A DNA stretch of 64,000 nucleotides from Ilyonectria destructans. Lineage: Eukaryota; Ascomycota; Sordariomycetes; Hypocreales; Nectriaceae. The position numbers and the translations under genes are program-made. Location of the stretch: assembly GCA_020740775.1 (NCBI GenBank), contig JAHEWK010000035.1, positions 186,001-250,000 on the forward strand, given 5' to 3'. Shown here piece after piece: positions 20,590 to 63,917 of the stretch (position 1 is its first letter; every line of letters begins with the position of its first letter). The notes beneath the pieces are model-generated. The model saw only the letters and a program-made list of their open reading frames with translations. It was not told where the DNA came from and searched no databases.

Positions 20590-20771
20590 TGTCACGGGCC
20601 AGGGCCCATATCCTTGCGGCTGTGCCGCAAGACGTACTAGGCACGTGCGCGCCAGGGATGATAATCGTTCCACAGCTCAGGGGCACTTGGGAACTTCTTT
20701 CTTCTTCATCTTTGATGTAAATAGCATCCTGGACTAGATAGCTGGAATACAGTTACTAGAGGCCGTTCACA
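20590..20771 (-). repeat. Copia-type LTR
   Basis: This is 182 bp bounded by TGTCACGG...GTTCACA, that is TG...CA on either strand. It is nearly identical to the solo LTR at 38416-38602. On the minus strand it follows directly on the truncated reverse-transcriptase coding sequence at 20772. The flanking 5-mers (ACGAC and GAAGT) differ, so it is not a simple solo insertion. Confidence 0.7.
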
Positions 20772-31572: not shown

Positions 31573-32882
31573 ACGCTATCTGCACAGATACATGCTCGAC
31601 AATGCGGAAACTCCACGCTGAGATGAAGAATATGCCTGAGCTCAGGCATTGTTTCTTCATTTTGTGTGATTCCCATGGTCTTCAACTTCTAGTGAAAGAC
31701 ATCGTGGAATCGGAGAGATGGGCTTTAGTCCTTAAGAAAGTTACGAGAATTATCACGTTCTTTAAAAAGGCCAAGCTCCAACTCGCACAACTTCGTGCTT
31801 ATCAGCTTGAGTGTTACGGTAAACAGAAGGCTTTCATTACACCAGCCATCACTCGTTGGGGAACACAACTCGGAGCTGTTATGTCTTCACTGGCGAACAA
31901 AGATGCTCTTCGAGCATATGCACGTGACGCTATGGTCCTCAATTCCCTAAAAGCTAAGGCTATCAAAGGGGAAGAGGAGGAAGAGGAAGATCGACAAGTC
32001 CTAAGGGCAATACTCTCGTCCATTAACAACTTTGAGTTTTGGCATGATGTAGAGATGTTGGCTAAGATCCTTCGGCCTATCGAAAACGCACAACGTTGCT
32101 CGGAGCGAGATCACTCATGCGTTGGAGAGGTTATTCCCCGTTGGTTGACTATCCAGAGCAAATGGGATGCCCTTGAAGAGGCTAACCAAGATCCTCTTAT
32201 CAACTACTCAGAGCTGAGGCAATGGCGAGTCCAAAGGATGAAAGGTCAAACGACAGACATTCACCACTTCGCATTTGCCTTGGACCCACGGACAACAATA
32301 GGGGAGGGTCTTGGGCTTGACACTATGGAGAGAGCACATCGCTTCCTAGAAGAAAACACTAGTAACGAAGAGTACCAACAGCTCTTTGGGGAGTTTTGTC
32401 GATTCCGTGCTCGCGAAGGTGCTCTCTTTGGCCCAACCTCGCGGATCTATCGAGAACAGCCGAAGACTCCTCATACGCCTTCTCACTATTACGTCCTAAG
32501 CGCGTGGGGATACTTTGGGTCTATGGGAGTCAAGTTGGTTACATTGGCAAGGAGAGTTCTAGGATCCTTGGCGAACTCTGTTCCTTCAGAGCGTTCCTTC
32601 AGTGCTACGAACTACCTTCATTGTAAGCTTCGGAATCGGCTTAGTCCGCTTAGCACTGACAAGGTCACTTTCATCTATATGAACAGTCGGGTGCTCAAGA
32701 GGCTCAAGACGGTCAAAGATAATCCGGCAGAACCGATGGTTGTCAAAAACTGGGAGACAGTTGATGTTGCTCGGCTAGTAAAGATAGAAAACGCCTTCCA
32801 AGACTCTATTGTTGTCGATGGCTGGGGTTGGGAAGAGACCGATTTGGAAAATAGTGGAGATGATATGGACATCGGCCAATAA
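31569..32882 (+). pseudogene. hAT transposase, C-terminal part (catalytic core and dimerisation domain)
   Basis: The second frame continues the transposase: CTDTCSTMRKLHAEMKNMPE, CDSHGLQLLVKDIVES (the CxxH region of hAT), ITRWGTQLGAV, and the C-terminal dimerisation helix SVPSERSFSATNYLHCKLRN ... DKVTFIYMNSR. It ends at 32882, 100 bp before the right terminus. A closely related transposase lies at 62520-63690. Confidence 0.8.
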
Positions 32883-42735: not shown

Positions 42736-43077
42736 GTTCGGCTCGCTTTTCTCTGCGTAGATAGCCTTCCCAAACCGAATCTCTATGACCTTGGCACCCC
42801 CATGTGTGCATTCGCGCAGTTCATGAAGAACGGCTTGGTCTCGACGGCCACTGGCGAGGCAGTAGCTACACTTCCATCTCCATCATTCGATTGTTGCCAA
42901 CCACCTCTTGATGATGATGGCGGCTTTTTTATCCAATTGGTGGGCGGAGAAGTTCGGCCCGTAGTAATCACAGGGCAAGGAATATCAGGGTGGTCATCGA
43001 TAAGATCGATACGATAGAAGTTCGTTGCATGCTTTCCTCGCCTCATTCCTAATGTAGTCTCGAATCAGAATGCAGTC

Positions 43078-43281
43078 GCAATCGGTGTGGGCCAGCAGCT
43101 GAGTCTTGAGGTGATAAACCTCGGCCGTCAGGGAATCGAAATCTGATGAGAGGTACAGGTTGTAGTTCTCCATGGCCTGTTCAAAGGGGGTAAGGGCCGA
43201 CGCCTCATTGGGTTTGCGCAAACGGCATTCGGTTGCTGCGATCCTGTTACATTTGAGGATGCACCGACGGCGGGGATCCTT
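43078..43281 (-). other. bZIP domain coding segment (ATF/CREB type) fused to the NLR
   Basis: Encodes the basic region and zipper. N-R-I-A-A-T-E-C-R fits the bZIP N-x7-R rule and is close to the ATF1/CREB fungal consensus. The tail CxCILIRDYIRNEARKAC resembles the end of fungal Atf1-like proteins. A broken second copy of the same module lies at 10128-10365. Confidence 0.7.
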
Positions 43282-43287
43282 TGGAAA

Positions 43288-43303
43288 ATCGTCGTCGTCG
43301 TCA

Positions 43304-43335
<32 letters not shown>

Positions 43336-43338
43336 GTC
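43288..43338 (-). repeat. GAC/GAT microsatellite encoding 17 Asp
   Basis: An uninterrupted Asp run between the last NLR repeat and the bZIP basic region, encoded by GAC with two GAT. It may be a flexible acidic linker. Confidence 0.9.
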
Positions 43339-43362
43339 TCCTTGCCATCGTGCCTTTCCATC

Positions 43363-44163
43363 TTCCTTGTCAATTCTTCTGGTAATAAGAGCCACTGTCT
43401 CCTCTGTGATGGTGATCTCGTCTCCCCGCCGGTCAAGAAGCAGCTCCATCACTTCCTTCCCATACTCTTCATTTCCTGCCGCAGCCTTCACTACCTCCTC
43501 CGTGATGGCGATCTCATCTCCCCGCCGGTCAAGAAGTAGTGCCATTACTTCCCTACCATTTCCATAATTTCTTACCGCAGCCTTCACCACCGCCTCCGTG
43601 ATGGCGATCTCATCTCCCCGCCCGTCAAGAAGTAGTGTCATCACTTCCTTACCATTCCTATAATTTCCTGCCGCAGCCTTCACTACCTCCTCCGTGATGG
43701 TGATCTCATCTCCCCGTCGATTGAGAAGAAGTGACATCACTTGCTTATCAAAGCTTCTAGCAATTAGAGACACCACCTCCTCTGTAATAGTGACCTGGTC
43801 TCCTCGCTGTCGGTCAAGAAGCAGTGCGATCACTTCTTTGCCATACCCATAATTTCCTACTGCAGCCTTCACTACCTCCTCCGTGATGGTGATCTCATCT
43901 CCCCGCCGGTCGAGAAGCAGCTCCATCACTTCCTTCCCATACTCTTCATTTCCTGCCGCAGCCTTCACTACCTCCTCCGTGATGGCGATCTCATCTCCCC
44001 GCCGGTCAAGAAGTAGTGCCATTACTTCCTTACCATTTCCATAATTTCTTGCCGCAGCCTTCACCACGTCCTCCGCGATAGTGATTTGCTCGTCCCGCCG
44101 GTCGAACAACAGCGCCATCAACTCCTTGCCACTATTGCGATTCCCTGCCGCAGCCTGTGTCAC
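43363..44163 (-). repeat. Tandem 96-bp coding repeats (eight units) in the NLR
   Basis: Each unit encodes a 32-residue variant of (I/V)(A/T)ITEEVVKAAAGN followed by (E/Y)(G/E/R)(Y/N)GKEVMxLLLDRRGDE. Units of joined-frame residues about 698-857 (second half) are almost identical, one unit is shortened, and the first is degenerate. High identity between units is the mark of repeat shuffling seen in allorecognition NLRs. Confidence 0.85.
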
Positions 44164-45369
44164 TGGTGCGGTTACCTTCCCTCCCAAGTCCAGCAGGATA
44201 GAAACAACACTTGGATATCCGGACCTAGCAGCGCATTCGAGTGGCGTTACGCTGGAAGCATCGATGCAATCAACAAAACGGATTACCTCCCCTGCCTTAC
44301 GATGTTGATAGGCTGAGAGAGAGACATAATCCGCTAGAGCAGGAACCCCCCACCGTGCAGCTACATGCAAAATCGAGAATTGTTGTGGAATCTCTTCATA
44401 TAACCTGTTGAGGCGACGATATGATCTTAGCCAGTACTCCCGACATGGAGAATTAATTTCGAAGAACTCCGCTTGCGAAGCCTTGGCCTCGAATCTCGAC
44501 TGCGCCATGCGCGCATGAATGGCCCAATCTTGAATTGCATACTTTGAGAAGTGACTTTGTGATCGCTCCCCATCGTGGAATTGCTTGATGAGCACAGAAA
44601 CGCAGCGATACGCAAGGTGAGCATGTGCCTCGAGCCCATTGATGAAATGGCCAGCCCCAGCCCCTGCTAAAAAGTCCTTGGCGGACTGATGCAGTAAGAG
44701 CACCTTTTCATCCTGAATGATGACCATTAGGCGGCAGGATGCGATTTGCTCGCGCGTAAACTGAATTCGAGTCTCCAAATCCTCCTCATCCTCGTGCAGT
44801 TGGCAAGCCTCAGAGAGCTCTAACACGCTCAGTGGCCGCAGACACACGGCAACGAAGCTCAGAATACGTTGCACTTGGACTTCGTGGGCTGGGCCCCTCA
44901 CTTCAAGAGCTGTGTGAAGAAGTCTCTTGTATAGTGAATGAAGCCCCTTAGGCATATCCTGTAAGACTCGGACAACATCCATCGAAGGAACATCCTCGAG
45001 CTCTTTACAGGCCAAGCCAACCCAGAGAAAAGTACCGTCTGCTTTATCTCTGAGGATGTCGCTGACTTGTCTTTTGACTTTTCCAGTGTAGCTATTTCTC
45101 TCGGACATTTCTTCCACTTTTTCTTTGATACATTGATGAATGTCTTCGTTTGACTGGGGAAAGGAAGCCAAGTCCTTATTGGGGTATCTTTTCAGGTATC
45201 CGGATATTTCGGGGTACCATGCACCACCACCCTTTCGCCAACCCCACCCTTTCGCCAAGCAAAAGAAAAAACCCACCACCAAAACTCAACTATTTTACTT
45301 ACACAATATTCGGTCAAAATAGAAGCTATTGGCAAACGGTTGCCTCTTGTAAACATAAAATTGATGGAT

Positions 45370-46637
45370 CTATTGATTTCTAGGTCTTTTTACTAGCCTC
45401 CCAGATCGTGTGGTGCGCTGAGGTGGTGTGGTTTCCTCTCTGACCTCAATGACCGAAGCGGTCTCCGATTCTGACTCTGACTCCTCCGAATAGCCAGATT
45501 CCACCACAACAGGCCTATTCTTGCTTCCTTTTTCGTGAATGGCTTCTCCAGCGGCCAGAGTCTCGCTAAGCGTCATGAAGCGTCTATTGGGATTAGGGAT
45601 AGCCTTCCTCTTCTTCCCTCTCTTCAGACGGGCCAGTTCCTCCTCCAGGCTAGCAATTCTCACGGCATGCGCCGCTAACGTCTGCTGCTGAGTCTCAAAG
45701 CCTTTGGCTATCACGTTATACCGTCTCCGTGTCTTTGGTGTTTTGTTTAGCCCAAGGTCGCGAATTTGACGGCTGGTTTTTGGTGTATCATCCGAGCCAA
45801 AATAGGGCGCCTGGTCTGGAGTCCTTCTTGGGCTGTCATTCGGCCTATCCTTTTGGATTTCTGGGTGCCGCAGAGCTTTGGCTCGTGAAATTGGCCAATT
45901 GCCAGTAACTCTCCAGCCAGAGAGTATATTCTTCTCAGTCATTCCCACCTGACGAGCCTTGGCGTAGGCTCTGATGAAATTGACCTTGTCCATTGGAGTG
46001 GAATCAGTCAGGGAAGCGAACTTTCCCAACTCTTGTCGATATGCAGCTTTGGAGGCGTTAAATACTCCATTATCTAATGGCTGGAGGCCGTGAGAGCAGT
46101 GTGCTGGGAGATAGCAACAGTAAACGTTGTTCAAAAAGCATGTAGCCATCCATTCATCCTTCAGTTGGTTAGTAGTAATCCTGAACCAAATAAACCAAGA
46201 CCATACCGTTGCATGACTCCCGTGGCCATCTAGAATGATTAATCTGGCATCAGACTCGTCGGCAGGCTTGGTCTGAGGCAAATAGGCTCTTTCAAGCCAT
46301 TCAATACCAATATGGTCGTCAGTCCACCCGTTAGGCGAAGTTATGTAATACCAGTCTGCTACTTTCCTGAATTCCTCAAGGAACCACTGTTTTTGGAGTT
46401 CCTTTCCTTTGAATATTATGCCAGGAGTTAAGACACGGCCATCGGCAGTAATAGCTTCGATGAACGAAGTCCAACTTCGAGTTTGTGGTCCCTTAAGAAG
46501 AGCCTTTCGCTTTGGGTTCGCGCTTCCCACCACCAGGCTATCCAAGCCTAGTGAAACGAGTGTGGTTAGTAAAATTTCGTATAGAAAGGGAATACAGGAA
46601 TAGAGGCTTGCCAAATCCAATCATGATACCTCCTTCG
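45370..46637 (-). pseudogene. pogo-type transposase, 3' part (DDE_1 domain)
   Basis: After the solo LTR, the frame reads GGIMIGF and, across a 64-nt intron (46548-46611; GC donor, ACTAAC branch, CACTAG acceptor), GLDSLVVGSANPKRKALLKG. The DDE_1 core follows: SFIEAITADGRVLTPGIIFK, LIILDGHGSHATVWS (second Asp), and LPAHCSHGLQPLDNGVFN (third Asp at LDN). A basic C-terminus with a coiled-coil segment (RIASLEEELARLKRGKKRKA) and an acidic tail follow to the stop at 45370. The part is otherwise undamaged. Confidence 0.8.
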
Positions 46638-47068
46638 TGTAACGGTCGTGTTCTCTGGGCTGCCGTAGACGTGGTCTAGGGTAGGCGAGAGATTGGTTGC
46701 TGGTGGATAAACCGTAGGTTTATGTTAGCAGAGCGGTTAGGGCGTCACTTACAGAGTAAATGTTACGTCTGGTAATGGTCAAGCACAGTGATGCGTAGCG
46801 AGTCAAGGTGATTGAGGTAACCAAGTTGTATTGATAGCTGAGTAGCTGCCCATGGTGAATGTGCACTACTCGGTCGTCTATATACTAAGTGGATCACTTA
46901 TGATCATGAGGCCCGTTGGGTGATCCGTCGTGATCCCGTAGCCGATCACAGGTGGATCACCGTGGTCCCACAGTGATCCGGAGTGATCTGTCCTAATTGG
47001 TCCTGTACGTCCGGGTTCTGCCAGTCTTGACCGCCCGGTCCTGCCTGGGTCCGACATGGGTCGTGACA
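46638..47068. repeat. Solo LTR (431 bp) inside the pogo-type transposase
   Basis: It begins TGTAACGGTC and ends GTCGTGACA, flanked by the perfect 5-bp duplication CTTCG (46633-46637 and 47069-47073). On the minus strand a TATATAGACG motif suggests that this is the transcription sense. It belongs to a different LTR family from those at 20.6, 38.4, 30.5 and 54.5 kb. Confidence 0.9.
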
Positions 47069-47570
47069 CTTCGTCAACGTTGACAGTGTTTTCAGGCTTA
47101 ATCCAGCCATACTGGCCCTCCCTGATATCGAAGTACCAGTGAACCGCCTTAGGCGTAAAGGACTCAAACCTATTAGCTTCTTGACGTCTACCGATCTTAG
47201 TCTTCAGGTCTAGGCGGCGCTCAATGAATCTGGCTACCCAATTGCGTCCTAATTCCGGTTGTTCGCCTTGTTGTCTTAACAAGCCTATGACGCAAGCGCG
47301 AATCTGATTATGGGACGGGGCATACCCCAGAGATTCTTGACGGAGAATCCAGAAAGCCAATTTGTCTTCCTGATTCTGGGATAAACGCTGACCAGGCTGA
47401 ATTTGCTCTTTCATGGCTGTCTGACCGTTAAGTCTGTCGATTAGAGTCCTTCTAGGCACCCCCCGTCGCTGAGCGGCCTGAGGCGGTGAAAAGCCGTTAT
47501 CGGTGATATCCAATATAGCCTCGGCCATGTCGTCTTCTGTATATTTCCAACGAGGCCGCAATGAAGGCAT
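47069..47570 (-). pseudogene. pogo-type transposase, 5' part (HTH domains and first catalytic Asp)
   Basis: The ATG at 47570 begins MPSLRPRWKYTEDDMAEAIL. A Psq-type HTH (GFSPPQAAQRRGVPRRTLID) and a CENP-B/Tc5-type DNA-binding domain (NQEDKLAFWILRQESLGYAP ... NWVARFIERR) follow. It reaches ENTVNVDE, which carries the first catalytic Asp of the DDE triad. The next codon is split by the solo LTR. The stretch from ATG to that point is open. Confidence 0.8.
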
Positions 47571-47867
47571 TTTTATTGCGTTGTAAGAGACTGGCATGAG
47601 AAATGTTATGAAAGGGCGGTGAGGAATTTGGTGATTAAGTTGGTGATATTTCCTTACAACGGTTTGCATACATCGCGTGCCCCACGCATCTGCATGTGAC
47701 CGGAAAAATAAATTCCAATTAATTCTATATCTATGACAAGTGACCGTTTTGCAAACAACTTCCATTTTGGCCAAATTCAGTATAAGTGAAATAGTTGAGT
47801 TTTGGTGGTGGTTTTTTTTTTTTGCCTGGCGAAAGGGTGGGGTTGGCGAAAGGGTGGTGGTGCATGG

Positions 47868-48733
47868 TACGGCCGACTGGTGACCAATATCCGGATATTT
47901 GGCGGTGCATTTCCGCTCTGAAAGGTTTCTCGCAGCTGTCGCAATAGAATGCCCTGCGATTCTCGATCGCATTCATCCAGCGCGTCAATGATGCAGTATT
48001 TTCGACCGGTGTGCTGGTCTGCGACCGTGTCCATGAATATTGCCCAGAGAGCGTCGAAAGATTTGAACAGTTCCCTCCCGCGTTCGTTGTACTTTGGTAA
48101 GAGGTAGTCGAGAAGCTGCCGGTGCTGCCGGACGAGTTGGAGGAGAAGGCCTCTGACGATTGACGTAGCCGTCTTCCGATTTTCGAAGCCAGAGTCGCAG
48201 AAAAAGTATGCGAGGGTTTTCCCACCCTTGGCAAAGAAAGCTGTAGACAGCTCCTCGGTAAGAAATATGGCCATTGTGGACTTCCCCGTTCCCGGGTTGC
48301 CATGGAGCCATAAGGCATGGGTCGCGCCGCCCTCCTCCATGGTCTGCTCGGAGCCAAGCCAGGCAGTCAGCTCTTCAGTGCCGAGTATCCACTGGCAGGT
48401 GCCGCTAGCGCGGTCTCCCTTCTTGCGTTTCAATGCCTTCCTGTCCTCGGACGGGTCGGTTAGGAAGAGGTTGCGTAGACAGTCTTGGGCTTTATCGTTG
48501 GTCAATAAGGGGTTGGCCGTAGTAATGTTCAAGTCGCCGCTGATGTTGCAATCCCCATAGCCTGAGAGTTGAAGCCCCTGGCCATGAAACTTAGCTTTAA
48601 TGCCAGGTTCGCCCCGACCGTGGAGTGTGTCGCTCGTGTCATGGGGTAACTGGCGTGGTCGCTTGTCAGGACATTCAGCGGTCGCAAGGGGGAATTGCTC
48701 GCTTAGTCGGCGCTTCTTGTATCTGCTCTCCAT
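47868..48733 (-). pseudogene. NLR (NACHT) 5' part of the transposon-split gene
   Basis: The ATG at 48733 opens 288 codons before the insertion. A basic N-terminus (MESRYKKRRLSEQF) is followed at residues 48-71 by KFHGQGLQLSGYGDCN and ISGDLNIT. Then come the pre-NACHT linker (CLRNLFLTDPSEDRKALKRK, CQWILGTEELTAWLG) and the NACHT NTPase with P-loop GNPGTGKST (145-153), Walker B YCIIDALDECD (246-256) and sensor ILVTSRP, at which the transposon interrupts. The last residue before the break is completed with the TA duplication and the frame continues at 45216. Without the insertion the protein would be about 1028 aa. The residue 48-71 motif resembles the C-terminus of the divergent PNP-fold gene at 49.8 kb. 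Confidence 0.8.
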
Positions 48734-49816
48734 GAGTGGAGCTCCAAAGCCTTGGCTGACTCTCGTATAGCGAAAATAATCACGGTAGATCACCAAAAGT
48801 CGTGCGGTGGACTGGGAACTTTGCGGCGTCCTCTTCCTTCTGTGTCGCTAGGCAGTTCTTTGACAAGCGTGAGGCCCGGCAGTGGCGACGACGCAAAAGC
48901 AACCTCGATTCTGAACGTATGCTTGAACCAGGCAGGTCCATCAGCGGGCGCAAGTCTGCCGGGCGGACAGTGGTCATGAGGCACAATAGCAAGACACGGG
49001 CCGGCCGGGACCAACGTTGCTCCAAAGCCTACCAGCGCGTCCTCCCTCCTCACCGTTTCCAGTCATTTCACATGAAGCATAAATTTCTGCGCCATTGGGT
49101 CAGTGGCTTTTTGCAAAGCCACAGAATGTTTGGCTTGGTGGCTCGGCACATACATCTTGCATGGCGCTTAAGAACTGTCGGGACTGTACCAAGCTAACAC
49201 ATCCAAGCTAACACATCCAGCCCGCATTCCACAAAGGAGAGATGCAATAGACATGTAAACTGTGGCAGATGCATTGGTGCCCAACACTCGCCTGATATCG
49301 TCACACGGGCTAGCTTCGTGATGGCGTAGAGTCACGCGGTTCAGTTTGAACCCAATCGGGAGGCACGTAAGGCGCAGCAGTCACATCGCTATTTCAGTGC
49401 ATGTAGCCTCTAATCAATCCACACATTTTTGATCAGCCCAGACCCGCCGTGGAAGGCGCAGATCCCTGTGATAGCATTGCCTCGCGAGGCTGTGCTCTTC
49501 AGACTGAGCCACCTAAATATGTGTGTGTACAAAGGTAATAGCGCATTGATTTCGTGGCTTTCCTTACCCAGTTATGACTAGGTTAGTGTGCCACTAACTG
49601 CATAGTGCAGTATCTGCTTGTCCGCGAATGATGGCCCTGGTACGTTGAAGGGGATAGTGGTGTGCGGCTGCTTACTGTGTCAATATATGTACATATTGTC
49701 TGGTCAAGGGGAGATCTCACCAAAAAAGACCCTTCGCCAAACTGCGGCTTTTTGGCTTCACCGACTCCGCCGACCGCGCCGTACATTCGTAGCCTTCGAT
49801 CCTGGACAGAGCTGGC
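48734..49816. promoter_or_regulatory. Shared upstream region of the divergent NLR and PNP_UDP genes
   Basis: About 1.08 kb between two start codons on opposite strands. I recognise no gene here; frames at 48802-49197 and 49583-49930 lack family content. CAAGCTAACACATC occurs twice in tandem near 49193-49218. It presumably holds both promoters. Confidence 0.4.
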
Positions 49817-50887
49817 ATGATAGATCTCAAAAGTCAACATACAAGAAGTCATAATGACTACAATATCGCCGTAGTCTGTGCCATGACGTTTGAAATGAGC
49901 GCTCTTCGCTACATGCTCGATCAAGAACACCCTCGTCTACCTACCAAAGAAGGAGATCCTAATATCTACACCCTAGGCGAGCTCCACGGCCACCATGTGG
50001 TTCTAGCGTCTCTTCCTGGAACTCAAGGCAAAGGGTCTGCCGCGACTGTGGCTACCAATCTGGCCCGCACCTTTCCTTGCATCAAGTGGAGATTCCTAGT
50101 TGGCATCGGTGGAGGGGTTCCAAGCAAAAAGCACGATATTCGCCTAGGCGATGTTGTCGTGAGCATGCCTGAAGGGCAGTATGGGGGTGTCGTACAGTAT
50201 GACTTAGGGAAAGACACCGAGGAGGACTTCCACCTCAAAGGGTTTCTGATGGCGCCACCGAGTTCGCTCAGGAGTGCCGTGGAGACAATGAGGTCTGATC
50301 TCATGGTCAAAGAGAGTAGGATTGACGAGTTTATCTCTGCGATGATGAAGAAGGGACGTCGCCTTGCGGCCTATGCACGGCCCTCAGACGAGGCGGACAT
50401 CTTGTTTGACGCAGGATACTCTCACGAATCCAACGTGTCCTCGTGCGACCAATGCGATCGCTCAAGATGTGTTGAACGACCAACACGCGACTTTCATGAT
50501 CCCGAAATACACTACGGACTAATCGCCTCGGGAGATAGCGTGGTCAAAAGCCCAACAAGAAGGAATGCGATCATTCGTGAGGTTGGCGACGTCCTCTGTT
50601 TCGAGATGGAGGCTGCGGGGATTATGACTGAATTCCCTGGCATTGTTATTTGCGGTATTTCCGACTACGCGGATTCTCACAAGAACGATCGCTGGCATTA
50701 CTATGCGGCGGCAACTGCCGCCGCATGCGCCAAAGAGGTGCTTTCGTATCTCGACCCCGAAGAGGTCAAGTCGTCCAGGCTTCCATCTGACCATGAGTCT
50801 CGAGCCAGCAACGTTTTCAAAGGAAATGGGATTCAGCATACGGGTTCTGGGAGTTTTTCCGTTGGCAAGAATTTGAACATCTCTTGA
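49817..50887 (+). CDS. PNP_UDP-fold (nucleoside phosphorylase-like) NLR-type effector with C-terminal signalling-like motif
   Basis: This is an intact 356-codon gene with a true ATG at 49817. The fold is that of purine nucleoside phosphorylase/MTA-SAH nucleosidase as found at the N-terminus of fungal NLRs: NIAVVCAMTFEMSALRYMLD, FLVGIGGGVPSKKHDIRLGD, HYGLIASGDSVVKS, CFEMEAAGIMTEFPGIVICG and SDYADSHKNDRWHYYAAATA. Instead of continuing into NACHT it stops after VFKGNGIQHTGSGSFS and VGKNLNIS. That motif resembles residues 48-71 of the NLR transcribed divergently at 48733. In Podospora and Nectria, NLRs activate separately encoded effectors through matching amyloid motifs; whether this motif works that way is inference. 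The same fold in bacterial antiphage systems acts on nucleotides. The alternative is a PNP-NACHT gene that lost its NACHT half. Confidence 0.8.
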   Translation: MIDLKSQHTRSHNDYNIAVVCAMTFEMSALRYMLDQEHPRLPTKEGDPNIYTLGELHGHHVVLASLPGTQGKGSAATVATNLARTFPCIKWRFLVGIGGGVPSKKHDIRLGDVVVSMPEGQYGGVVQYDLGKDTEEDFHLKGFLMAPPSSLRSAVETMRSDLMVKESRIDEFISAMMKKGRRLAAYARPSDEADILFDAGYSHESNVSSCDQCDRSRCVERPTRDFHDPEIHYGLIASGDSVVKSPTRRNAIIREVGDVLCFEMEAAGIMTEFPGIVICGISDYADSHKNDRWHYYAAATAAACAKEVLSYLDPEEVKSSRLPSDHESRASNVFKGNGIQHTGSGSFSVGKNLNIS

Positions 50888-54736: not shown

Positions 54737-56362
54737 TCACTCATTACGAGACGATGACTCGATTGGTACGACAATATTTTGAAAGAATTGAATCAAGCGA
54801 TTTCCTTCGTCTGACTGGTCTCCATAGGCACATCCACTGAGAAGCCGCCTTGTTGCCTCCTCATATTTTTCTCCCATGCGATGCGCCAAGTCCCCGCCGA
54901 GTTGATGTCTGAGGAGCCTGTCTCTGCTTTGAAGAGGTGTATAGTGGGATTTCAGGAAGCTGTCGATCGGCCTCCAATACCCGATTTCGAGAAGAACAAT
55001 GCCAAGACTGTACGCGTCAAAATTGGCGTTGTAACCTTGGCGAGGGTTTGAGACGATATCTGGATGCTGGTAGGGTAACTCCTCCGGGCAGATCGAGATT
55101 GGAAGAGATAGCGCCTGTGGTGATTCTTCTCGAGAGTATCCAAATCCACAGATATACTGATCGAGATACATGTCTTGGCTGTGCTGAGACCTGCAAGGGA
55201 GAATAATGTTGGCACTGCTGAAGTTCCTATGCAGCCATTTTGCAGCGTGGAACTGGAGCAGGCCGTTTGCGAGTGTACTTGCGAGCTGAAAGCGGTTATG
55301 CAATGTCGGTAGTGGTACTGCAGATTGTCGTCGGGATTGTAGCAGGTCTCGAAGGGTCATTGTCTCTGATATACCGCCCATTTGATCGGGTAAACGGAAG
55401 ATGAGGCCAATTCTCTCTCCAACTTCGTCATGACAGTATCCAATGCAGTCTAGCACGCGAAAGGACCGAGGCTTCGGCGTTCTGCCAAGGAGCGCTGCTA
55501 GGCCTTCCGCGCGGTCGAGAAGAAGGGAGACGGTATCCAGTGACTCGCAATTGTGCCTCCGCCACTCGAGGAGCACCGGGGTGGACCCCAGAACTCCAAT
55601 GGCTCTGGAACTCCCCTCGTTTGGAGAGAGGATGTTGATCGACGGCATTGGGATAAGACGCGCAGTGCCGTATCCAGCCTGCACACCAGGTAATCTGCTA
55701 GCCTGGAGCATTAACGAATGAAGGCGCTGGCCGGAGGCTTGGGAAAGATTGTCATATGCGCTTTGCGCTGCTTCTCGGATGACGCGCAAGGTGTTGGCGT
55801 TGTCAGTGGAAGTCGATTGAAGGGCCATCATCGCGAAATCCCGTCGGTAGTTGGTCATCTGGCCCTCCTGAAGCAGGGCATTCAGGCCGTTATTTAATCG
55901 CCGAAGGTCTTCAATTAGCTTCTCAAAGTTCTTTCGGTCAAAGAGCCATCTCACAGAAAGCCTGAAGGATTTGGAACTCTGCGGCCCTTGGATGTCTTGA
56001 TTGGGAAGTTCTGGAGCACCTAGGAGATAGCAGTTGGGCGCGCGACCCTCTGCATCTTTCTGTACAGTGTCGACTTTGAGCCCGTATCTTGCTTTGAGGG
56101 TGTCTGCGTCTTTAGTTATAACGTCAATCTGGCGGAGTGTGCTGATGACGGTGTCGAGGTCTCGAGCGGGGATCAGACAAGTGGCGTCAAGCAGGCCTGC
56201 GTTGCGGCCCCAAAGTACCAGTCTCTTCTCCTCAATCTCGAGACAGCAGGCAATCATGGCGGCCTCCTTGCCTTGGTCGCGGATGGTGCGCAGGGCTTCA
56301 TAGCCTTGGATGCAGCTCGAGAAGAGCGAAACAACACCGATCGTTAGACCCGCAGCTTCCAT
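54737..56362 (-). CDS. HeLo-domain pseudokinase (MLKL-like architecture)
   Basis: The ATG at 56362 opens 541 codons; earlier in-frame codons have no ATG. Residues 1-165 form a HeLo domain like that of HET-S: MEAAGLTIGVVSLFSSCIQG, LEIEEKRLVLWGRNAGLL, then VRWLFDRKNFEKLIEDLRRL and NNGLNALL. HeLo domains are membrane-active cell-death helical bundles related to the MLKL four-helix bundle. Residues about 250-535 form a kinase-like fold: HDEVGERIGLIFRLP (hinge), FHAAKWLHRNFSSANIIL (catalytic loop), YICGFGYSREES (DFG position) and NFDAYSLGIVLLEIGYWRPI. HRD is HRN, DFG is GFG, and no VAIK lysine is seen, so it is a pseudokinase. It is head-to-head with the kinase-ankyrin gene at 56724. Membrane killing regulated by the pseudokinase is inference. 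Confidence 0.8.
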   Translation of the reverse strand: MEAAGLTIGVVSLFSSCIQGYEALRTIRDQGKEAAMIACCLEIEEKRLVLWGRNAGLLDATCLIPARDLDTVISTLRQIDVITKDADTLKARYGLKVDTVQKDAEGRAPNCYLLGAPELPNQDIQGPQSSKSFRLSVRWLFDRKNFEKLIEDLRRLNNGLNALLQEGQMTNYRRDFAMMALQSTSTDNANTLRVIREAAQSAYDNLSQASGQRLHSLMLQASRLPGVQAGYGTARLIPMPSINILSPNEGSSRAIGVLGSTPVLLEWRRHNCESLDTVSLLLDRAEGLAALLGRTPKPRSFRVLDCIGYCHDEVGERIGLIFRLPDQMGGISETMTLRDLLQSRRQSAVPLPTLHNRFQLASTLANGLLQFHAAKWLHRNFSSANIILPCRSQHSQDMYLDQYICGFGYSREESPQALSLPISICPEELPYQHPDIVSNPRQGYNANFDAYSLGIVLLEIGYWRPIDSFLKSHYTPLQSRDRLLRHQLGGDLAHRMGEKYEEATRRLLSGCAYGDQSDEGNRLIQFFQNIVVPIESSSRNE

Positions 56363-56723
56363 GTCTCTTGGGTCGCGCAGCGTTTCCTGTCGGGGAAACG
56401 GCCAAGTGGTCTGCAGATGCCGCGTTGCTTGGATTCTCAAGTTGACATGCAAAGTTGGGGGGCCGGTATGAGAATTTGTTGGATCACTAGTGGACGCCAC
56501 TCTGGTCAAGTCACGCGGAGTCGGGCCTCGTTGCCCAAGTGGCTTAGACACGTCGGCTCAGCTGAGACACTCGACTACTTAAGGTGCCTATCGTCTTGCC
56601 ACAGTTGACAGACACAGCCTTCCCTCTAGATATCATCCTTGTCCTACACCGAAGATTTTGTCGCCAACTGCACCAGCAACACAACCTCGCGTGACCCGCG
56701 AAACACTCCCCTCAACGACCGAC
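56363..56723. promoter_or_regulatory. 361-bp bidirectional promoter of the HeLo-pseudokinase and kinase-ankyrin genes
   Basis: This is the whole interval between the two ATGs. The minus-strand frame stays open back to 56551 and the plus frame back to 56658 without ATG, so true leaders are short. No TATA box is clear. Co-regulation of the two genes is the natural reading. Confidence 0.5.
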
Positions 56724-59700
56724 ATGGACTCGTCGCATCAGCGCTACGAGTCATCTGTCAGAGAGAGCTCGGCCAGCTCCGACCCCCCGGGTGACACGCC
56801 TTGTACGCCAGTGGACTTTGCAATCACTCAGCTAATCATCTTGGGGACCTGGATGCACAAGTACAACCCGGAAATCTCGAATGGCACAGTGCTCTCGGAG
56901 ACTGGCTACAGGCTCGGTTCAGCCCCAGCTAACTCTCGGCCTATCGGCCATGGATTCACGGCATCAGTTAATAGCATGAACGTAATGATCGCCAATCCTA
57001 CGACGGCACGGAACCCAAGTGGCCTCAGCGTGGTCAAGCGAGTCAGAACCTGGCACGGAAACTCCCAGGAATCGGGAATGGCCATCCTCAGAGAGTTAAA
57101 GGTCTTGATCTCGCCCCTCACACGTCGCCATCCAAATATTGTCTCATTGGAGATGTACGCCTGGGAAGTTCTTGAGGGTGGCACCCCAGCAATCTCTCCT
57201 GTGCTCTATCTGGAGCGGGCAGCTGGCAGCCTGGCAGAGCTGCAAACTCAAGAGAAGCTACCATACTCCAGGAAAAGAGCCATCATGCTTGACATATCTC
57301 GTGGACTCTCTGCTCTTCATGCAGTTGGAGTTATCCACGGTGACCTGAAATCAGAGAACGTGTTAGTCTTCCAGAACGGCAACGGGTATCTCGCGAAACT
57401 TTGCGACTTCGGCTTCAGTATCATTCTTGCCGATATAGATGGATCAAAAGCTCGCCTTGTTGGGGGAACTGCTCTCTGGATGGCACCAGAGTGCTCCAAG
57501 CGAGACACAATCCCAGCCAGTCTTCTCAAGAAAACTGACTACTACCCCCTTGGGTTGCTGTTTTGGAGGATCCTCCTGGACGGCTACAACCCTTTCTGCA
57601 TCCCCAGGTTGACAGAGGGCCGTGAACCAGAAATGTTGAAACTGTCTGAACCATCACTGTTGGTGATTGCGCAGTTTTCTGTACTTCTTCTCGAGGACTA
57701 TGTGTCCAGTTATGAGGAGATATTCCGGTTGCTCGCTGCTACCATTCAGAAACGCCCTTGGCACCGAAGTCTTGGAGCCGCACTTATGATCCTTGGCGAC
57801 TCCAACTTTCCTGTTTCTGTCCCGGCGAGCGGTCGCGTAACTCTGAACCCCCACGACCTTTTGCACGACGAGCGTTGGGGATTTCATGTCCGTAACATTG
57901 AGCCCAGTCTCCGTCGCAAAGCCTTAAAGCATCTAATGGCGGGAGCAAAAGCTGTGGAACAGGCTGCAAAAAGCTCCTTCCCGGGCTTTTGTCCCGTGTC
58001 GAGCTCGCTGCTCTCCAACACTCTGGGCGATGGGGGCTTGGACGTCGACGATGACCCCGAAGGAGCATTGCGCTTGATGACAGAATGTGCAGAGAGGCAA
58101 TACGTACCGTTCCAGTCAATCTTGGTCCGAATGTATGACTACTTTGGCATACAAATGCCAGACAAGGTGGCCAAACGTGCGAACGAATTCCTCTGGAATG
58201 GTGTGGCTAACGGCTCTGTCACTGCTTGCCTGGATTACGCAACCTACTGGCCACGGTTGAAATATCAAACGCAGGGCGAACCGGATGTCGCTCTCTTCGG
58301 CCTGAGGACATTTTTCTCGGGCGGTATTGGGATACAAGTTGACTTCAGGGTAGGAGACTTGCGAGATAAAGCTCTTCTCGAAAAACGACTCGAAAGCGGT
58401 ACATACGACAAAGCTTCGTTGCAGGCACTATACGGACTAGAACGAGGTAATAATCTGCTCCATGGAGCTGCAATGCTGAATCTGCACCGGCTGCCTGAAA
58501 TGTTGATCAGGAAGTTCAAGGCAGACGTGAACGAGCAGAACAACGACAGAGACACCCCTCTGCTCCTAGCTTGCCGCCACGGCCACTTTCCATTAATCGT
58601 CAAGCTCCTGTCCAACGGAGCCCGCGCAAACATTGCCAACAAATACGGAGAAACGCCGCTTCATTGGGTCATCAACGTGCCTAACGAGCCGACGTCGGTG
58701 AATGGTCATCATATTCAGAGCGTTTTGGAAATGTCGATCATGATGTTGAGTGATACAGGGGACCTGGAAGCAAAAGCTCAGCTGTACTCGGCCGGAGGGG
58801 ACGATTTCACACGGTTGAAATGGGCGGCCGGCACGCCGCTGCACCGAGCGGTGTCCAGACGTAACCTTGCCGCAGCTAGGTACTTACTGAAGCAAGGAGC
58901 TGATCCTCTTGTCCTTGATGGATCACCTGAAGAGGACGCCGTGACACCCTTGGACCTGGCGATGCATCACCACAACGCCCCGATGCTCAAGCTACTCCTC
59001 GATGCGAGCCAATACGACATCAATAACATTGACAAATACGGAACAACGCTTTTCAGTCGAGCTATCTCAGCCGTCACGGTATTGGAGATAATTACTATCC
59101 ATGGAAAACGGTACCCGGAGGCCATCCATGACACAATGGAGCTACTCATGTCTCGCGGCCTGAACCTAAAGGTCGCCCAAGTCACTTCGGTTGTCGGCCA
59201 GCCTACGCCATTTAGGAAGAAAATACATCTTGGGAGGAGATCTAACTACTACGAATTCGATGGTCTCTACCTGGCTGTATACTTCGAAAAGCTTGCCTGG
59301 GTGCAGTTCATGTTGAACTCGGCGCAATGTATGTCATTCCTAGACATCAACCGCCATAATGGATCCATGGGCATGACTGCTTTGCATCAAAGCGTCATAG
59401 ACGGCCGAAAGTCAATCTTCAAGGCTCTGCTTGCGGCAGGAGCTGATCCCTCGAGCCGTTTCCACGCGTTTTTAGAGAACGTGAAGGGCTTCGAAAGCAG
59501 CATGACATGTCTCCATCTGGTCGCCACCCAAGGAGATGACGATCTTTTCTTCTCTAAGAGGCTGCTGGCATACGACTTGGATCTTGACGCTTGTGACCTT
59601 TATGGAACAACGCCATTCGCTCTAGCCGTTCTCGAAGGCCATTTCCATGTTGCGAATGCACTGCTGGAGGCTGGATCTGACATCGACAAATTGATGTGTA

Positions 59701-60320
59701 TTCAAACCGCGAGTCAAGGCCGTGGGGAAACAGTTCTGGAAAGGGTTCTAGCCCAGGGAGCCAATGGCCTCCAGAGATTGCAGTACCTTCTTTCCCGTGA
59801 AAGAAGCGCCGACGATGCTGCACAGGATAAGACAAAACCATGGCTTTCTCGCCCTGGGCAGCCTGCATCATTGCGTCTTGGACATGGCAGTACTACCCTC
59901 CATTACTTTCTTCACATCAACAAAGGCCGCACAGACTCGATGTTCGTGGCATGTTTTCGTACGATTCTCGACGCATGTGGTCCGTCCCTGCTGGACGACC
60001 TGGCTCTTCCAACACCGCGACTGGACGTCAACTGTAAGAGAGTAACCCCATTGCATATCGCCGTGGAAAATGCGGATCCAGTTGTAGTGCAAATGCTCTT
60101 GGACGCAGGAGCAGATCGCTGCGTCACCAACGAAGAGGGAATTCTGCCCTTGGACGTTGGGAGGCAGCAGCTAAAGCAGCGCGGCTTATCGCAGAAGTCG
60201 CGTAACATATACCGGGACGTCATTCGTATTTTAGAGGGAAATTTGGGCAGTCCTGCAGAGTTGGAAGGTCCCGATATGGGGGAGAGGCTCTCAAGTCGGC
60301 TGCGAGACCTAATGACTTGA
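56724..60320 (+). CDS. Protein kinase with C-terminal ankyrin repeats
   Basis: The ATG at 56724 opens 1198 codons without introns. The kinase domain (about residues 70-360) has a glycine-loop region (IGHGFTASVNSM), LSVVKRV with the ATP lysine at ~105, AILRELKVL (helix C Glu), catalytic loop VIHGDLKSENVLV, DFG (KLCDFGFSI) and MAPE. Catalytic Asp and Asn are kept, with HGD in place of HRD, so it is probably active. A Sel1/TPR-like middle (ALRLMTECAERQYVPFQSIL) leads to a long ankyrin region from about residue 590 to 1170 (NNLLHGAAMLNLHRLPEML, DTPLLLACRHGHFPLIVKLL, TPLHIAVENADPVVVQMLLD). Kinase-ankyrin order recalls RIPK4/ANKK1 and fungal immune kinases. Its divergent neighbour is a HeLo pseudokinase, suggesting a signalling pair; that is inference. 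Confidence 0.85.
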   Translation: MDSSHQRYESSVRESSASSDPPGDTPCTPVDFAITQLIILGTWMHKYNPEISNGTVLSETGYRLGSAPANSRPIGHGFTASVNSMNVMIANPTTARNPSGLSVVKRVRTWHGNSQESGMAILRELKVLISPLTRRHPNIVSLEMYAWEVLEGGTPAISPVLYLERAAGSLAELQTQEKLPYSRKRAIMLDISRGLSALHAVGVIHGDLKSENVLVFQNGNGYLAKLCDFGFSIILADIDGSKARLVGGTALWMAPECSKRDTIPASLLKKTDYYPLGLLFWRILLDGYNPFCIPRLTEGREPEMLKLSEPSLLVIAQFSVLLLEDYVSSYEEIFRLLAATIQKRPWHRSLGAALMILGDSNFPVSVPASGRVTLNPHDLLHDERWGFHVRNIEPSLRRKALKHLMAGAKAVEQAAKSSFPGFCPVSSSLLSNTLGDGGLDVDDDPEGALRLMTECAERQYVPFQSILVRMYDYFGIQMPDKVAKRANEFLWNGVANGSVTACLDYATYWPRLKYQTQGEPDVALFGLRTFFSGGIGIQVDFRVGDLRDKALLEKRLESGTYDKASLQALYGLERGNNLLHGAAMLNLHRLPEMLIRKFKADVNEQNNDRDTPLLLACRHGHFPLIVKLLSNGARANIANKYGETPLHWVINVPNEPTSVNGHHIQSVLEMSIMMLSDTGDLEAKAQLYSAGGDDFTRLKWAAGTPLHRAVSRRNLAAARYLLKQGADPLVLDGSPEEDAVTPLDLAMHHHNAPMLKLLLDASQYDINNIDKYGTTLFSRAISAVTVLEIITIHGKRYPEAIHDTMELLMSRGLNLKVAQVTSVVGQPTPFRKKIHLGRRSNYYEFDGLYLAVYFEKLAWVQFMLNSAQCMSFLDINRHNGSMGMTALHQSVIDGRKSIFKALLAAGADPSSRFHAFLENVKGFESSMTCLHLVATQGDDDLFFSKRLLAYDLDLDACDLYGTTPFALAVLEGHFHVANALLEAGSDIDKLMCIQTASQGRGETVLERVLAQGANGLQRLQYLLSRERSADDAAQDKTKPWLSRPGQPASLRLGHGSTTLHYFLHINKGRTDSMFVACFRTILDACGPSLLDDLALPTPRLDVNCKRVTPLHIAVENADPVVVQMLLDAGADRCVTNEEGILPLDVGRQQLKQRGLSQKSRNIYRDVIRILEGNLGSPAELEGPDMGERLSSRLRDLMT

Positions 60321-61077: not shown

Positions 61078-62172
61078 TTACTTAGAAAATGGTATGTACA
61101 CCTCACAGAATGCAAAACTTACTTCCGACTGGGCTATCAGAGCGCTCCTGTCCCAGGATCGTAGGCATTCCAAAAGATTCAAAGTTTCAATGTTCATAGA
61201 TCCTCGCTGGTCGGTGACTGTCAGTCTAGCTTTGGAGAAGAGTCGCTCTGTCTCAGCAGACATAGGCGGAATCGATAGAATGTCGATGGCCATCAAGGAC
61301 AGGTTAGGGAATCTTCTTCGCTGAGCCAGTTCGAGCCACCATTTCAAAGGATCCGATATCATCATCACAGGTTCGCGACACTATACTTCGTACTCGTCAT
61401 CATCCATGTTCAAAATCGTGGCCTTTTGCTCTTTCATCCAGATCTTGTATCCATTCAGCCGTCTCGTAGTGGGTTCTTGTGCACCGCTTTGACGGAGAAT
61501 GGGACTGGGTGTGGTTGGCTTGTATGTCTTGCTCCACAGCTGCTCTACACGGGCTTTAGCCTTCTCGATCCATTCATTCTTATCTTCCCAAGTCTTCTCC
61601 ATGTATGCCCACTTGAGCGAGGGATTTAAGACCGTTGCTGCTGAATACACTGGAGAATCCTCTGTCGCTTCATAATAGTCGGCTAGTTTGGCCCAGGCAG
61701 TCTCCATCATGGTCGCCAAGTGGGGGACCGCGGTGATCTCCCTGGACGTCTCAATGTGATGAAGAAGATAATCCATAGTTGGCAGAACGTCACATATGGA
61801 ATTTCGATTGCCTTCGTTGGCCATTGTGGCATCTTGAAACGGCTCGAGAAATTTGCAAGTCTCGGTCAAAGTTGCCCAGTCGGAAGGAGTCAGGATATCC
61901 TGTTGCAGAGCCGGCTCTTGCGCACAAAAGATGGTGATAGATTGCCTGACCTTAGACCTCAGAGCCCATTCGACCATTTTGTACCACGAATTCCAAGGAG
62001 TGTCATTATCACACCGTAACCTAAGACCGTCGCTAAGGATAGTGAACGCTTGAAGCCGCTGGGGGCTCCAAGTAATGTAGACGACGATATTATGAAGTTT
62101 GCCTATCGCCCCTCGCTTTCTCCATTGCTCAATTTCCTCGTCGGACGGTCCATGGTAGGAATCTGTTGTGGG
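61078..62172 (-). pseudogene. hAT transposase relic (Tfo1-like), 3' half, two frames
   Basis: The frame 62238-61381 carries EEIEQWRKRGAIGKLHNIVVYITWSPQRLQAF, the RCDNDTPWNSWYKMVEWAL segment and SAATVLNPSLKWAYMEKTWE, typical of Restless/Tfo1-like hAT transposases. A stop at 61381 separates it from DPLKWWLELAQRRRFPNLSL and SAETERLFSKARLTVTDQRG (61368-61078), the dimerisation domain. The upstream half is cut off at 62172 by another hAT element. Dead copy. Confidence 0.7.
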
Positions 62173-63690
62173 TAGGGATGCATCGAGGTAAATTACCAGG
62201 AGGTAAATTACCAAAACCCCTAGGTAAATGACGGTCATAAACCCGAGGTTTATGACGCGTCATTTATCACGTGCTTCCAGTACTATTTGGTGACTACGGA
62301 ACGGCGTCGGTGGAATGATATACGCACATACAGTTTGGTGTGCATTGGTATTCGTCGGGGATGAGGTACCGATCACACCAAAATCGGCTGTGCGGGTACA
62401 AGAGGTCCATACCCCCGTGCAACGGCTCCGTGTTCGTTTCTTCGTCAAAACTCCCAGACTTGCTACTTCAATATGACAGTATTATATTTCTCGAAAGCCA
62501 ACTTATTTACATTTCAACGTTAATAAACAGACTCTGTCTCTGCGTCCGTGCCTGCATCTACAAAAATGCAGTCCTGGAAGTCGTCCTCGAGCTCTAAGAG
62601 CAACTTCACGTCAGCCGTCTCCCAGGATTGGCCGCTCGGCATTCTCCAAGGTGTCTCTTGGGCTGTCTCAAGTTTTCTCAACACCCGACTATTCATATAT
62701 ATGAATGTCAATTTATTGGTGCTAGTGACAGTAAGACGATTGCGAATCTTGTTGTGGAGGAAATTGATGGAGGAAAAAGATCTCTCAGAAGGTACGGAAT
62801 TAGCCAAAGCGCCCAGTACTCGTTTGGCCAATGCAGCGAGTGATACATTCATAGAATGAAGATACCGCCAACTGTCAAGGACGTGTTGGTGGTGCGGAGT
62901 GCCCTCGGATGCTGCTCTGTATATGCGACTTCCTGGGCCAAAGAGGTTGCCCTCCCGAGCTCTAAATTGACAAAACTCCCGGAAGATATTGCCGTATTCC
63001 TCAGCGTTGGTGTTGTCCTCAAGAAAGTTGTGTGCTCTTCTGACAATGTCTGTGGTCAACAAATGGTGCTTCGGGTCGGTAGTGGCAGGGTCCAAAGCAA
63101 AGGCCATGTAGTGTATGTCGTCCGTTTGCACGTCAAACCGTTGCTTTCGTAATGCCTTCAGTTCTTGGTAGTTTATTAGTTGGTCCTGACCAGCCTCTTC
63201 CAATGCGTCCCATGAAGCCTGAATGGATAGCCAACGTGGAATGACCTCCCCAAGACCCGCGCGGTCGCGTTCTGAGTTGGCTTGGGCATGGCCAATCGGC
63301 TGAAGAACTTTGAATAACATTTCCAGATTGGCCCAAAATTCGAGATCGTTGATATATGATATCACCTGAGGTAGACTTGACTGTGTCACCTGTTCCTCCT
63401 CTTTGACAATTACCGGCTTCATTCCGTTGAGAATAACTGGATCGCGTGCGAAAGCTCGAAGGGCGTCTTTGTTGGCAAACACAGATTTAACAGCAGCAAG
63501 TTGTGTTCCCCAGCGTGTGATTGCAGCAGTAATGAACGCCTTGCGCTGCCCGTAGCATTCCTGCTGATGAATGCGAAGCCTTGACAACTGCAATTTGGCT
63601 TTCTTAAAGAAGGCAATGAGAAAAGTAATCTTCCCAAAGATTGGCATCCACCGCTTCGACTCCACAATGTCTTTGATAAGCAATTGAAAG
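62173..63690 (-). mobile_element. hAT element of the 30.7-kb family, 3' end present
   Basis: Its end at 62173 (TAGGGATGCATCGAGGTAAA, then TTACC repeats) resembles the right end of the element at 30662-32981 read on the other strand. It is inserted in the Tfo1-like relic at 61078-62172. The opposite end is missing because sequence of other origin starts near 63690. Confidence 0.6.
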
Positions 63691-63917
63691 ACGCTATGAA
63701 ATGTTGCGAGGTTTCCCTCTGGATGTTGATCGGTTGGAAGCTGGGTAGTGAAAACGCTGTGCACGTTATCATCATACTTCCGATTTGGCTTTGGTGTCCG
63801 GTCGCTCTTGCGAGTCGGTTGGTCACCGTAGAGTTCCTTTTGGCTGCGGCGCGTGCGCGTTGTGCCGCGAGCTTCAGGAGTTGTTTGGTCACCTGACGGC
63901 TGCTTGTCCGGTTGCAT
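62520..63917 (-). CDS. Chimeric frame: probable copia Pol segment fused to hAT transposase
   Basis: From the ATG at 63917 the frame is open for 465 codons. Residues 1-75 (RSQKELYGDQPTRKSDRTPK, PNRKYDDNVHSVFTTQLPTD) resemble the linker between integrase and reverse transcriptase of copia Pol. From residue ~77 it is hAT transposase: QLLIKDIVESKRWMPIF, ITRWGTQLAAVKSVFANK, IPRWLSIQASWDALEEAGQD, SVPSERSFSSINFLHNKIRN and TFIYMNSR. Close similarity to 31569-32882 is obvious by eye. The BED finger and first catalytic region are absent, so it is not a working transposase. A fused transcript could be made but there is no evidence for it. Confidence 0.6.
   Translation of the reverse strand: MQPDKQPSGDQTTPEARGTTRTRRSQKELYGDQPTRKSDRTPKPNRKYDDNVHSVFTTQLPTDQHPEGNLATFHSVFQLLIKDIVESKRWMPIFGKITFLIAFFKKAKLQLSRLRIHQQECYGQRKAFITAAITRWGTQLAAVKSVFANKDALRAFARDPVILNGMKPVIVKEEEQVTQSSLPQVISYINDLEFWANLEMLFKVLQPIGHAQANSERDRAGLGEVIPRWLSIQASWDALEEAGQDQLINYQELKALRKQRFDVQTDDIHYMAFALDPATTDPKHHLLTTDIVRRAHNFLEDNTNAEEYGNIFREFCQFRAREGNLFGPGSRIYRAASEGTPHHQHVLDSWRYLHSMNVSLAALAKRVLGALANSVPSERSFSSINFLHNKIRNRLTVTSTNKLTFIYMNSRVLRKLETAQETPWRMPSGQSWETADVKLLLELEDDFQDCIFVDAGTDAETESVY

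Follow-up and report, generated by a model that had tools for sequence, protein, structure and literature searches.

The HeLo domain of the fungal protein HET-S attacks the plasma membrane through its N-terminal helix, and HeLo is grouped with the four-helix bundle of MLKL (PMC12881547; PMC10197012). In mammals, an amyloid assembles the kinases that phosphorylate MLKL, whereas in fungi the amyloid activates the executor directly; the RHIM of mammals and the RHIM-like motif of fungi act at non-equivalent steps of the pathway (PMC5485727). According to a 2025 review, HELL domains occur in fungal kinase and pseudokinase proteins (PMC12881547). Plant MLKL and Pm13 represent an MLKL-type protein in immunity (PMC10951266). 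Here, we describe two neighboring, divergently transcribed genes of Ilyonectria destructans, one encoding a HeLo domain fused to a catalytically dead kinase fold (the HeLo-pseudokinase) and the other an intact kinase followed by ankyrin repeats (the kinase-ankyrin protein). They lie in the window, i.e., the whole 64,000-nt stretch of DNA that was analyzed, which comprises bases 186001-250000 of contig C29 (409,888 bp) in a genome of 71.7 Mb.

The pairing of the HeLo-pseudokinase with the kinase-ankyrin gene is not due to chance, and the pair is almost certainly a functional unit in which the HeLo domain is probably the executor. We propose that the two genes form a regulated-cell-death module working like RIPK-MLKL; for the whole chain of events, we set the probability at about 0.5. 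This figure and the gradings of the parts are judgements.

Architecture of the two proteins

The initial annotation, made from the sequence alone, had described a HeLo-type N-terminal domain on a kinase fold lacking the key residues, and had named a profile search for HeLo as its own check. The search recovered the domain: PF14479 matched the N-terminus (residues 5-179) with 103 bits against a curated cut-off of 23.2, was found at the same place in a whole-genome search and was the top Pfam match of the gene. Behind it, DUF7580 (PF24476) was detected with an E-value of 9.1e-9 (35.8 bits versus a curated cut-off of 27), and the Pfam Pkinase profile stayed below threshold (24.1 bits versus 31.7). 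A full kinase fold behind the HeLo helices was predicted by the structural model (predicted local distance difference test, pLDDT, 81.9; predicted template modeling score, pTM, 0.84). The N-terminal residues were alike in most close relatives in an alignment of 34 rows. The minus-strand frame is open up to 56551 (GTG), its earliest ATG lies at 56362, and the extent of the gene is best taken as 54737-56362 rather than as reaching 56551.

The loss of catalytic residues was consistent across the family. Among 19 close sequences, window included, the position of the beta3 lysine was occupied by E (16) or D (3), the DFG aspartate was replaced by G in every case, and the HRD aspartate position held N in 16 sequences and S, H, and D in one each. 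In the wide alignment (n = 34, window included), the beta3 lysine and the DFG aspartate were gone in all sequences and the HRD aspartate in 32. A profile-profile alignment with the partner kinase family placed G406 on the DFG aspartate and N380 on the HGD aspartate. The position of S419, in the putative activation segment, was S or T in 31 of the 34 sequences and E or D in the other three, which is in keeping with a phosphorylation site but is no proof of one.

When the family profile was compared with known structures, the HeLo domain of HET-s was retrieved first (2wvo, 1.2e-8), and the match to MLKL spanned the kinase part only. The best kinase matches were MLKL 4m68 (3.2e-7), tied with ribosomal S6 kinase alpha-5; another MLKL entry, 4btf (8.2e-7), ranked under three MAPK1 sequences. 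The alignment with 4m68 had HRN and GFE at the HRD and DFG places where the HeLo-pseudokinase has lost its aspartates. Foldseek placed the rat MLKL pseudokinase at rank 30 among the 50 matches listed, and no MLKL was present among the 50 VIA structure matches listed; the matches listed included entries of EGFR/HER3 and of the LKB1-STRAD complex. These lists say only that the modeled domain has a kinase fold resembling kinases in general, with MLKL not singled out.

The facing gene likewise agreed with its initial description as a kinase with intact K/E/HGD/DFG motifs followed by ankyrin repeats. The Pkinase profile matched with an E-value of 3.1e-22 (79.7 bits versus a cut-off of 31.7), and K105, E124, HGD, K209, N212, DFG, and APE were invariant in 14 of 14 aligned relatives, window included. 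The pair thus consists of a pseudokinase and a partner equipped with the full residue set of an active kinase. The Ank_2 profile reached 9.9e-40, with the best ankyrin stretches at residues 579-650 and 1108-1136, and no Pfam match was reported for the linker between kinase and repeats. Neither NACHT nor NB-ARC was among the eight Pfam families found in this protein at E <= 1. Comparison of the kinase domain with known kinases gave nearly tied values for CTR1 (1.2e-12), PAK4 (5.3e-12), and RIPK1 (8.3e-12). The structural model of this protein was weak (pLDDT 65 overall, worst in the kinase part), and nothing was concluded from it. The open reading frames, strands, and start codons also agreed with the annotated divergent transcription across 361 bp. 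A promoter scan of this intergenic stretch in the sigma-70 style was set aside as meaningless in a fungus.

Two database records of the kinase-ankyrin family look truncated. The record from the window contig (P0056) covers only residues 1-726 of a frame that extends to 1198, and the Thelonectria olida record (P0057; 90% identity) is confined to the 727 C-terminal residues.

Recurrence of the pair

The whole-genome search with the HeLo-pseudokinase revealed 23 places, 18 of which extended into the pseudokinase part; the remaining five, representing either an N-terminal alignment only or a repeat of a locus already counted, were left out, and HeLo places were joined to pseudokinase places where the two were co-located. 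A divergent Pfam kinase was located within 2.5 kb at 4 of the 18 loci (window included), and a kinase in another orientation at none; one same-strand neighbor appeared when the limit was 4 kb. When the window was left out (3 of 17 loci), a chance model of uniform kinase placement that ignores gene density gave binomial probabilities of 5.8e-6 for the 2.5-kb limit and 2.3e-5 for the 4-kb limit. For this calculation, 124 of 295 kinase candidates were scored and exon fragments were merged by hand into 118 places; at 11 of the 18 loci, the upstream DNA was covered within short loci only. Reading of the DNA raised the number of divergent pairs to 6 of 18, window included, plus one decayed pair (Table 1). 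In a genome search with the kinase-ankyrin protein, in which the best 39 of 273 candidates were scored, two places besides the window matched the kinase part of the partner, and both were divergent beside HeLo-pseudokinase genes. A profile survey of short flanks (L001-L064) yielded no further kinase partner; it also missed the partners at C40 and C1, its flanks being too short, and thus indicates no absence.

Inspection by eye of the unaligned sequences showed that the HRD and DFG aspartates were missing in the pseudokinases of all five further pairs, and that DFG was kept in the partner kinases at C67, C40, C12, and C1. Among the pairs, those of the window, C67, and C73:2676 had a recognizable HeLo domain. 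In the decayed pair, the kinase piece has no N-lobe and a degraded DFG, and the facing HeLo gene carries a stop in its pseudokinase part. The partner at C40 (L064:4480-6001) contains 15 ankyrin units, each 33 residues long, whose mean pairwise identity is 78%; the array has a 99-bp period with 88% matches, and 9 of the 33 unit positions have no residue at 70%. The candidate at C67:1183029/1187475 (L068) has an intervening gene and was not counted, and at C4 and C2 the nearby kinases share the strand of the pseudokinase genes and are not pairs.

Protein searches for relatives in other fungi scored 7994, 7996, and 7995 candidates, and missing rows in them prove no absence. Linkage was recognized by contigs of identical size in bp, together with locus tags, so that orientation in Aspergillus and Penicillium is not readable from it. 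At least 18 relatives of the HeLo-pseudokinase were found at 40-62% identity. Contigs of 10 kb or more carried 12 of them, and 7 of these 12 shared a contig size with a kinase-ankyrin relative. Where positional tags were lacking (five pairs), linkage means a common contig, at whatever gene distance. Adjacency in related genomes, on which the initial annotation had made its proposal depend, was found as consecutive tags in two Penicillium angulare genomes, besides the repeated divergent pairs of the genome itself. Aspergillus and Penicillium belong to the Eurotiomycetes, and the class of the window species is Sordariomycetes (Nectriaceae). The pair therefore spans both classes. The pairwise distances of the two families correlated with r = 0.98 (8 pairs, window included), a value reached by 3 of 40,320 orders in a permutation test, the true order counted.

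Table 1. Coordinates of the gene pair, of its further copies in the same genome, and of contigs shared by relatives of both proteins (window positions unless a contig is named).
Feature	Location	Strand or orientation	Details
HeLo-pseudokinase gene	54737..56362	-	541 aa; one uninterrupted frame from ATG 56362
HeLo domain	55826..56350	-	residues 5-179; PF14479 2.5e-29; N-terminal helix over residues 2-30 in model
Pseudokinase domain	54740..55666	-	kinase fold at about residues 233-541; DUF7580 on 267-470
E266 at beta3 Lys position	55565..55567	-	E/D in 34/34 aligned
N380 at catalytic Asp of HRD	55223..55225	-	Asp in 2/34 only; register from profile-profile alignment
G406 at DFG Asp	55145..55147	-	G in 34/34; register from profile-profile alignment
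S419, candidate phosphorylation site in putative activation segment	55106..55108	-	S in 19/19 close sequences
Intergenic region common to both genes	56363..56723		361 bp from ATG to ATG
Kinase-ankyrin gene	56724..60320	+	1198 aa; ATG 56724
Protein kinase domain	56940..57617	+	about residues 73-298; K105, E124, HGD205-207, N212, DFG228-230, APE254-256
Linker region	57759..58433	+	about residues 346-570; partly conserved; helical in low-confidence model
Ankyrin-repeat region	58434..60131	+	about residues 571-1136
Pair C73 (L062/L063 set)	kinase 2678634 (+); HeLo-pseudokinase 2676317-2677813 (-)	divergent	confirmed on DNA
Pair C67 (L062/L063 set)	kinase 2936733 (+); HeLo-pseudokinase 2933896-2935440 (-)	divergent	confirmed on DNA
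Pair C40 (L064)		divergent	pseudokinase (-); kinase then ankyrin array (+); DNA read
Pair C12 (L066)		divergent	pseudokinase (-); kinase then ankyrin array (+), as C40; DNA read
Pair C1 (L065)	C1:3743000-3748600	divergent	kinase (-), no ankyrin seen in the stretch read; pseudokinase (+)
Decayed pair (L067)	C73:1394500-1397300	divergent	HeLo recognized at locus
Shared contig, Aspergillus varians	154,747 bp
Shared contig, A. cavernicola	319,790 bp
Shared contig, A. stella-maris	393,048 bp
Shared contig, Penicillium angulare	3,761,614 bp		consecutive tags N7456_001823/001822
Shared contig, second P. angulare genome	9,265,372 bp		consecutive tags N7478_007011/007012
Shared contigs, two further	71,646 and 50,131 bp

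Proposed mechanism and alternative explanations

The observations directly support both architectures, the keeping of catalytic residues in one protein and their loss in the other, the linkage in two classes, and the repeated divergent pairs. From these, we infer a chain leading from ligand sensing through kinase activity, phosphorylation, and release to pore formation. The HeLo-pseudokinase would be the executor, kept off by its catalytically dead kinase domain, and the kinase-ankyrin protein would be both sensor and activator, with the ankyrin repeats taking up the signal. The partner kinase domain would then phosphorylate the pseudokinase, with S419 as the candidate site. Phosphorylation would free the HeLo domain, which may oligomerize and permeabilize the plasma membrane, so that the hyphal compartment dies. 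The biological occasion might be non-self recognition or anti-parasite defense. Since a dead kinase stands in the place of the prion-forming tail of HET-S and an intact kinase is encoded head to head with it, phosphorylation would be the most economical switch.

Several results weigh against this proposal. MLKL retains the beta3 lysine, unlike the present family, in which E or D replaces it in 34 of 34 sequences. The MAPK1 chains scored almost like MLKL, so that kinship with MLKL is weakly supported. The conservation of S419 could be structural instead. The partner kinase at C73 reads DFD, and that at C67 has WGD for HGD, as judged by eye. The whole-genome HeLo search gave no match at C40, C12, and C1, and Pfam reported no HeLo on the C40 and C1 pseudokinases, with DUF7580 absent or sub-threshold; with three of the six paired genes lacking a HeLo match, the executor part is not constant. 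Tandem Repeats Finder (TRF) detected no repeat array in the window's own kinase-ankyrin gene, and the unit identity at C40 is under the 85% mark used for the arrays of highly similar repeats that distinguish fast-evolving fungal recognition receptors (PMC4986451). Among the matches listed, 5 of the 12 HeLo-pseudokinase relatives had no kinase-ankyrin row on their own contig (A. karnatakaensis, P. steckii, A. unguis, A. heterothallicus, and A. oleicola), and in the opposite direction a HeLo-pseudokinase row was missing for 6 of the 13 kinase-ankyrin rows whose contigs reached 10 kb (Thelonectria olida, one metagenome row, A. spectabilis, A. venezuelensis, P. pancosmium, and P. manginii). The correlation of r = 0.98 is expected from shared species descent alone. 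The necroptosis-like reading of the initial annotation was therefore retained in part: an intact kinase does stand beside a catalytically dead partner, but the effector was not filed as MLKL because of the lost beta3 lysine, nor the partner as a RIP kinase, because its kinase branch is unsettled while CTR1, PAK4, and RIPK1 nearly tie.

The kinase-ankyrin protein might instead restrain the HeLo-pseudokinase as a guard or antidote, with death following its loss, inhibition, or mismatch, in the manner of incompatibility pairs or poison-antidote elements. Such an antagonistic pair would fit the tight divergent linkage, the paralogous copies, and the decayed copy equally well, and a linked two-gene allorecognition locus is known (PMC10890737). 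However, the catalytic residues kept in 14 of 14 kinases and the S/T/acidic site in the pseudokinase suit activation at least equally. Nothing in these data separates an "on" from an "off" effect of the kinase, and we regard restraint as unlikely. A comparable doubt attaches to a reading in which the pseudokinase acts on the kinase allosterically or as its scaffold, the HeLo domain serves as a membrane anchor or oligomerizer, and the output is a phosphorylation signal rather than direct killing. HER3 for EGFR and STRAD for LKB1 are precedents for pseudokinases of this kind. The fold searches, which returned kinases generally and listed both complexes, are compatible with it, as is the missing HeLo match in half of the paired genes. 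It is opposed by the modeled helix at the extreme N-terminus, the N-terminal residues alike in most close relatives, and the HeLo domain as the strongest domain match, given that the HeLo of HET-S kills (PMC12881547).

An executor driven by a NOD-like receptor (NLR) or amyloid signal, as in HET-S/NWD2, with the kinase gene as an accessory, seems improbable. NLR-type pieces do lie about 4-6 kb off in the window (NACHT, 47780-48796; PNP_UDP_1, 49817-50884), and het-S/nwd2 is a conserved two-gene cluster (PMC10197012); however, the neighboring NACHT gene is broken by a transposon, no nucleotide-binding domain was reported in the partner, a pseudokinase follows the HeLo domain, and the linked gene of the relatives is a kinase. 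Divergent neighboring genes are common in fungi. That the two genes are plain neighbors with no common function is nevertheless very improbable in view of the linkage in 7 of 12 relatives and of the different paralogues repeatedly paired divergently in one genome.

Genomic surroundings and comparison with known systems

An NLR-type gene occupies the minus strand within 42994-48796, with an NPHP3_N/NACHT domain at 47780-48796. It seemingly continues at 42997-45282 as winged-helix, ankyrin, and DUF7104 repeats, the single minus-strand frame there holding nine DUF7104 stretches and then a bZIP_1 match (1.4e-7). The segment 45214-47870, which splits the gene, encodes a DDE_1 transposase and has 123-nt inverted repeats that are 89% complementary. 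Between the split gene and the pair, a protein with a PNP_UDP_1 nucleoside-phosphorylase domain is encoded at 49817-50884 on the plus strand; this is one of the usual N-terminal domains of fungal NLRs. A hAT-family transposase was located at 33522-35924 on the plus strand (Dimer_Tnp_hAT, 1.4e-24), and further hAT-like frames (31569-32882, 61381-63917) were recognized by eye, as was a copia-like frame (20706-23792). The gene pair thus lies in a transposon-rich stretch.

If the proposal is true, the fungal kinase-pseudokinase pair fills the step that the amyloid route to the executor leaves out, and simple genetic hosts would allow tests of how necroptosis originated and of how pseudokinases came to be used as switches for cell death. 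More fungal immune modules may also be sought by a simple rule, a kinase gene faced by a pseudokinase gene of the HeLo/DUF7580 type. A broader and more tentative idea is that fungi possess a complete kinase-to-pseudokinase-to-HeLo death pathway, a stepwise equivalent of RIPK3-MLKL set apart from the amyloid-NLR route. Its portable divergent pair might have been duplicated and re-partnered within one genome with different kinases and sensor tails (ankyrin or other), the pseudokinase remaining constant and the kinase-sensor, and sometimes the N-terminal executor, being swappable.

The effector architecture and the gene-cluster principle are already known. A linked kinase-ankyrin partner for a HeLo-pseudokinase was not found in a literature search of partial coverage and may be published elsewhere. 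The pair resembles RIPK3-MLKL of animals in combining an intact kinase with a HeLo/four-helix-type domain on a pseudokinase without the HRD and DFG aspartates; unlike in that system, the genes here are linked and divergent and the kinase bears ankyrin repeats. RIPK4 and ANKK1 consist of an N-terminal kinase and C-terminal ankyrin repeats, and the partner has the same order according to Pfam. An MLKL-type protein is shared with plant MLKL and Pm13, which differ in being from plants and for which we know of no linked kinase-ankyrin partner. From the HELL-(pseudo)kinase proteins mentioned in the review (PMC12881547), the pair is distinguished by its cognate kinase and its head-to-head arrangement. 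In contrast to HET-S/NWD2, HELLP/PNT1, and the fungal gasdermin-protease clusters, the putative activator here is a kinase with ankyrin repeats rather than an NLR or a protease, and the proposed signal is phosphorylation rather than amyloid templating or cleavage.

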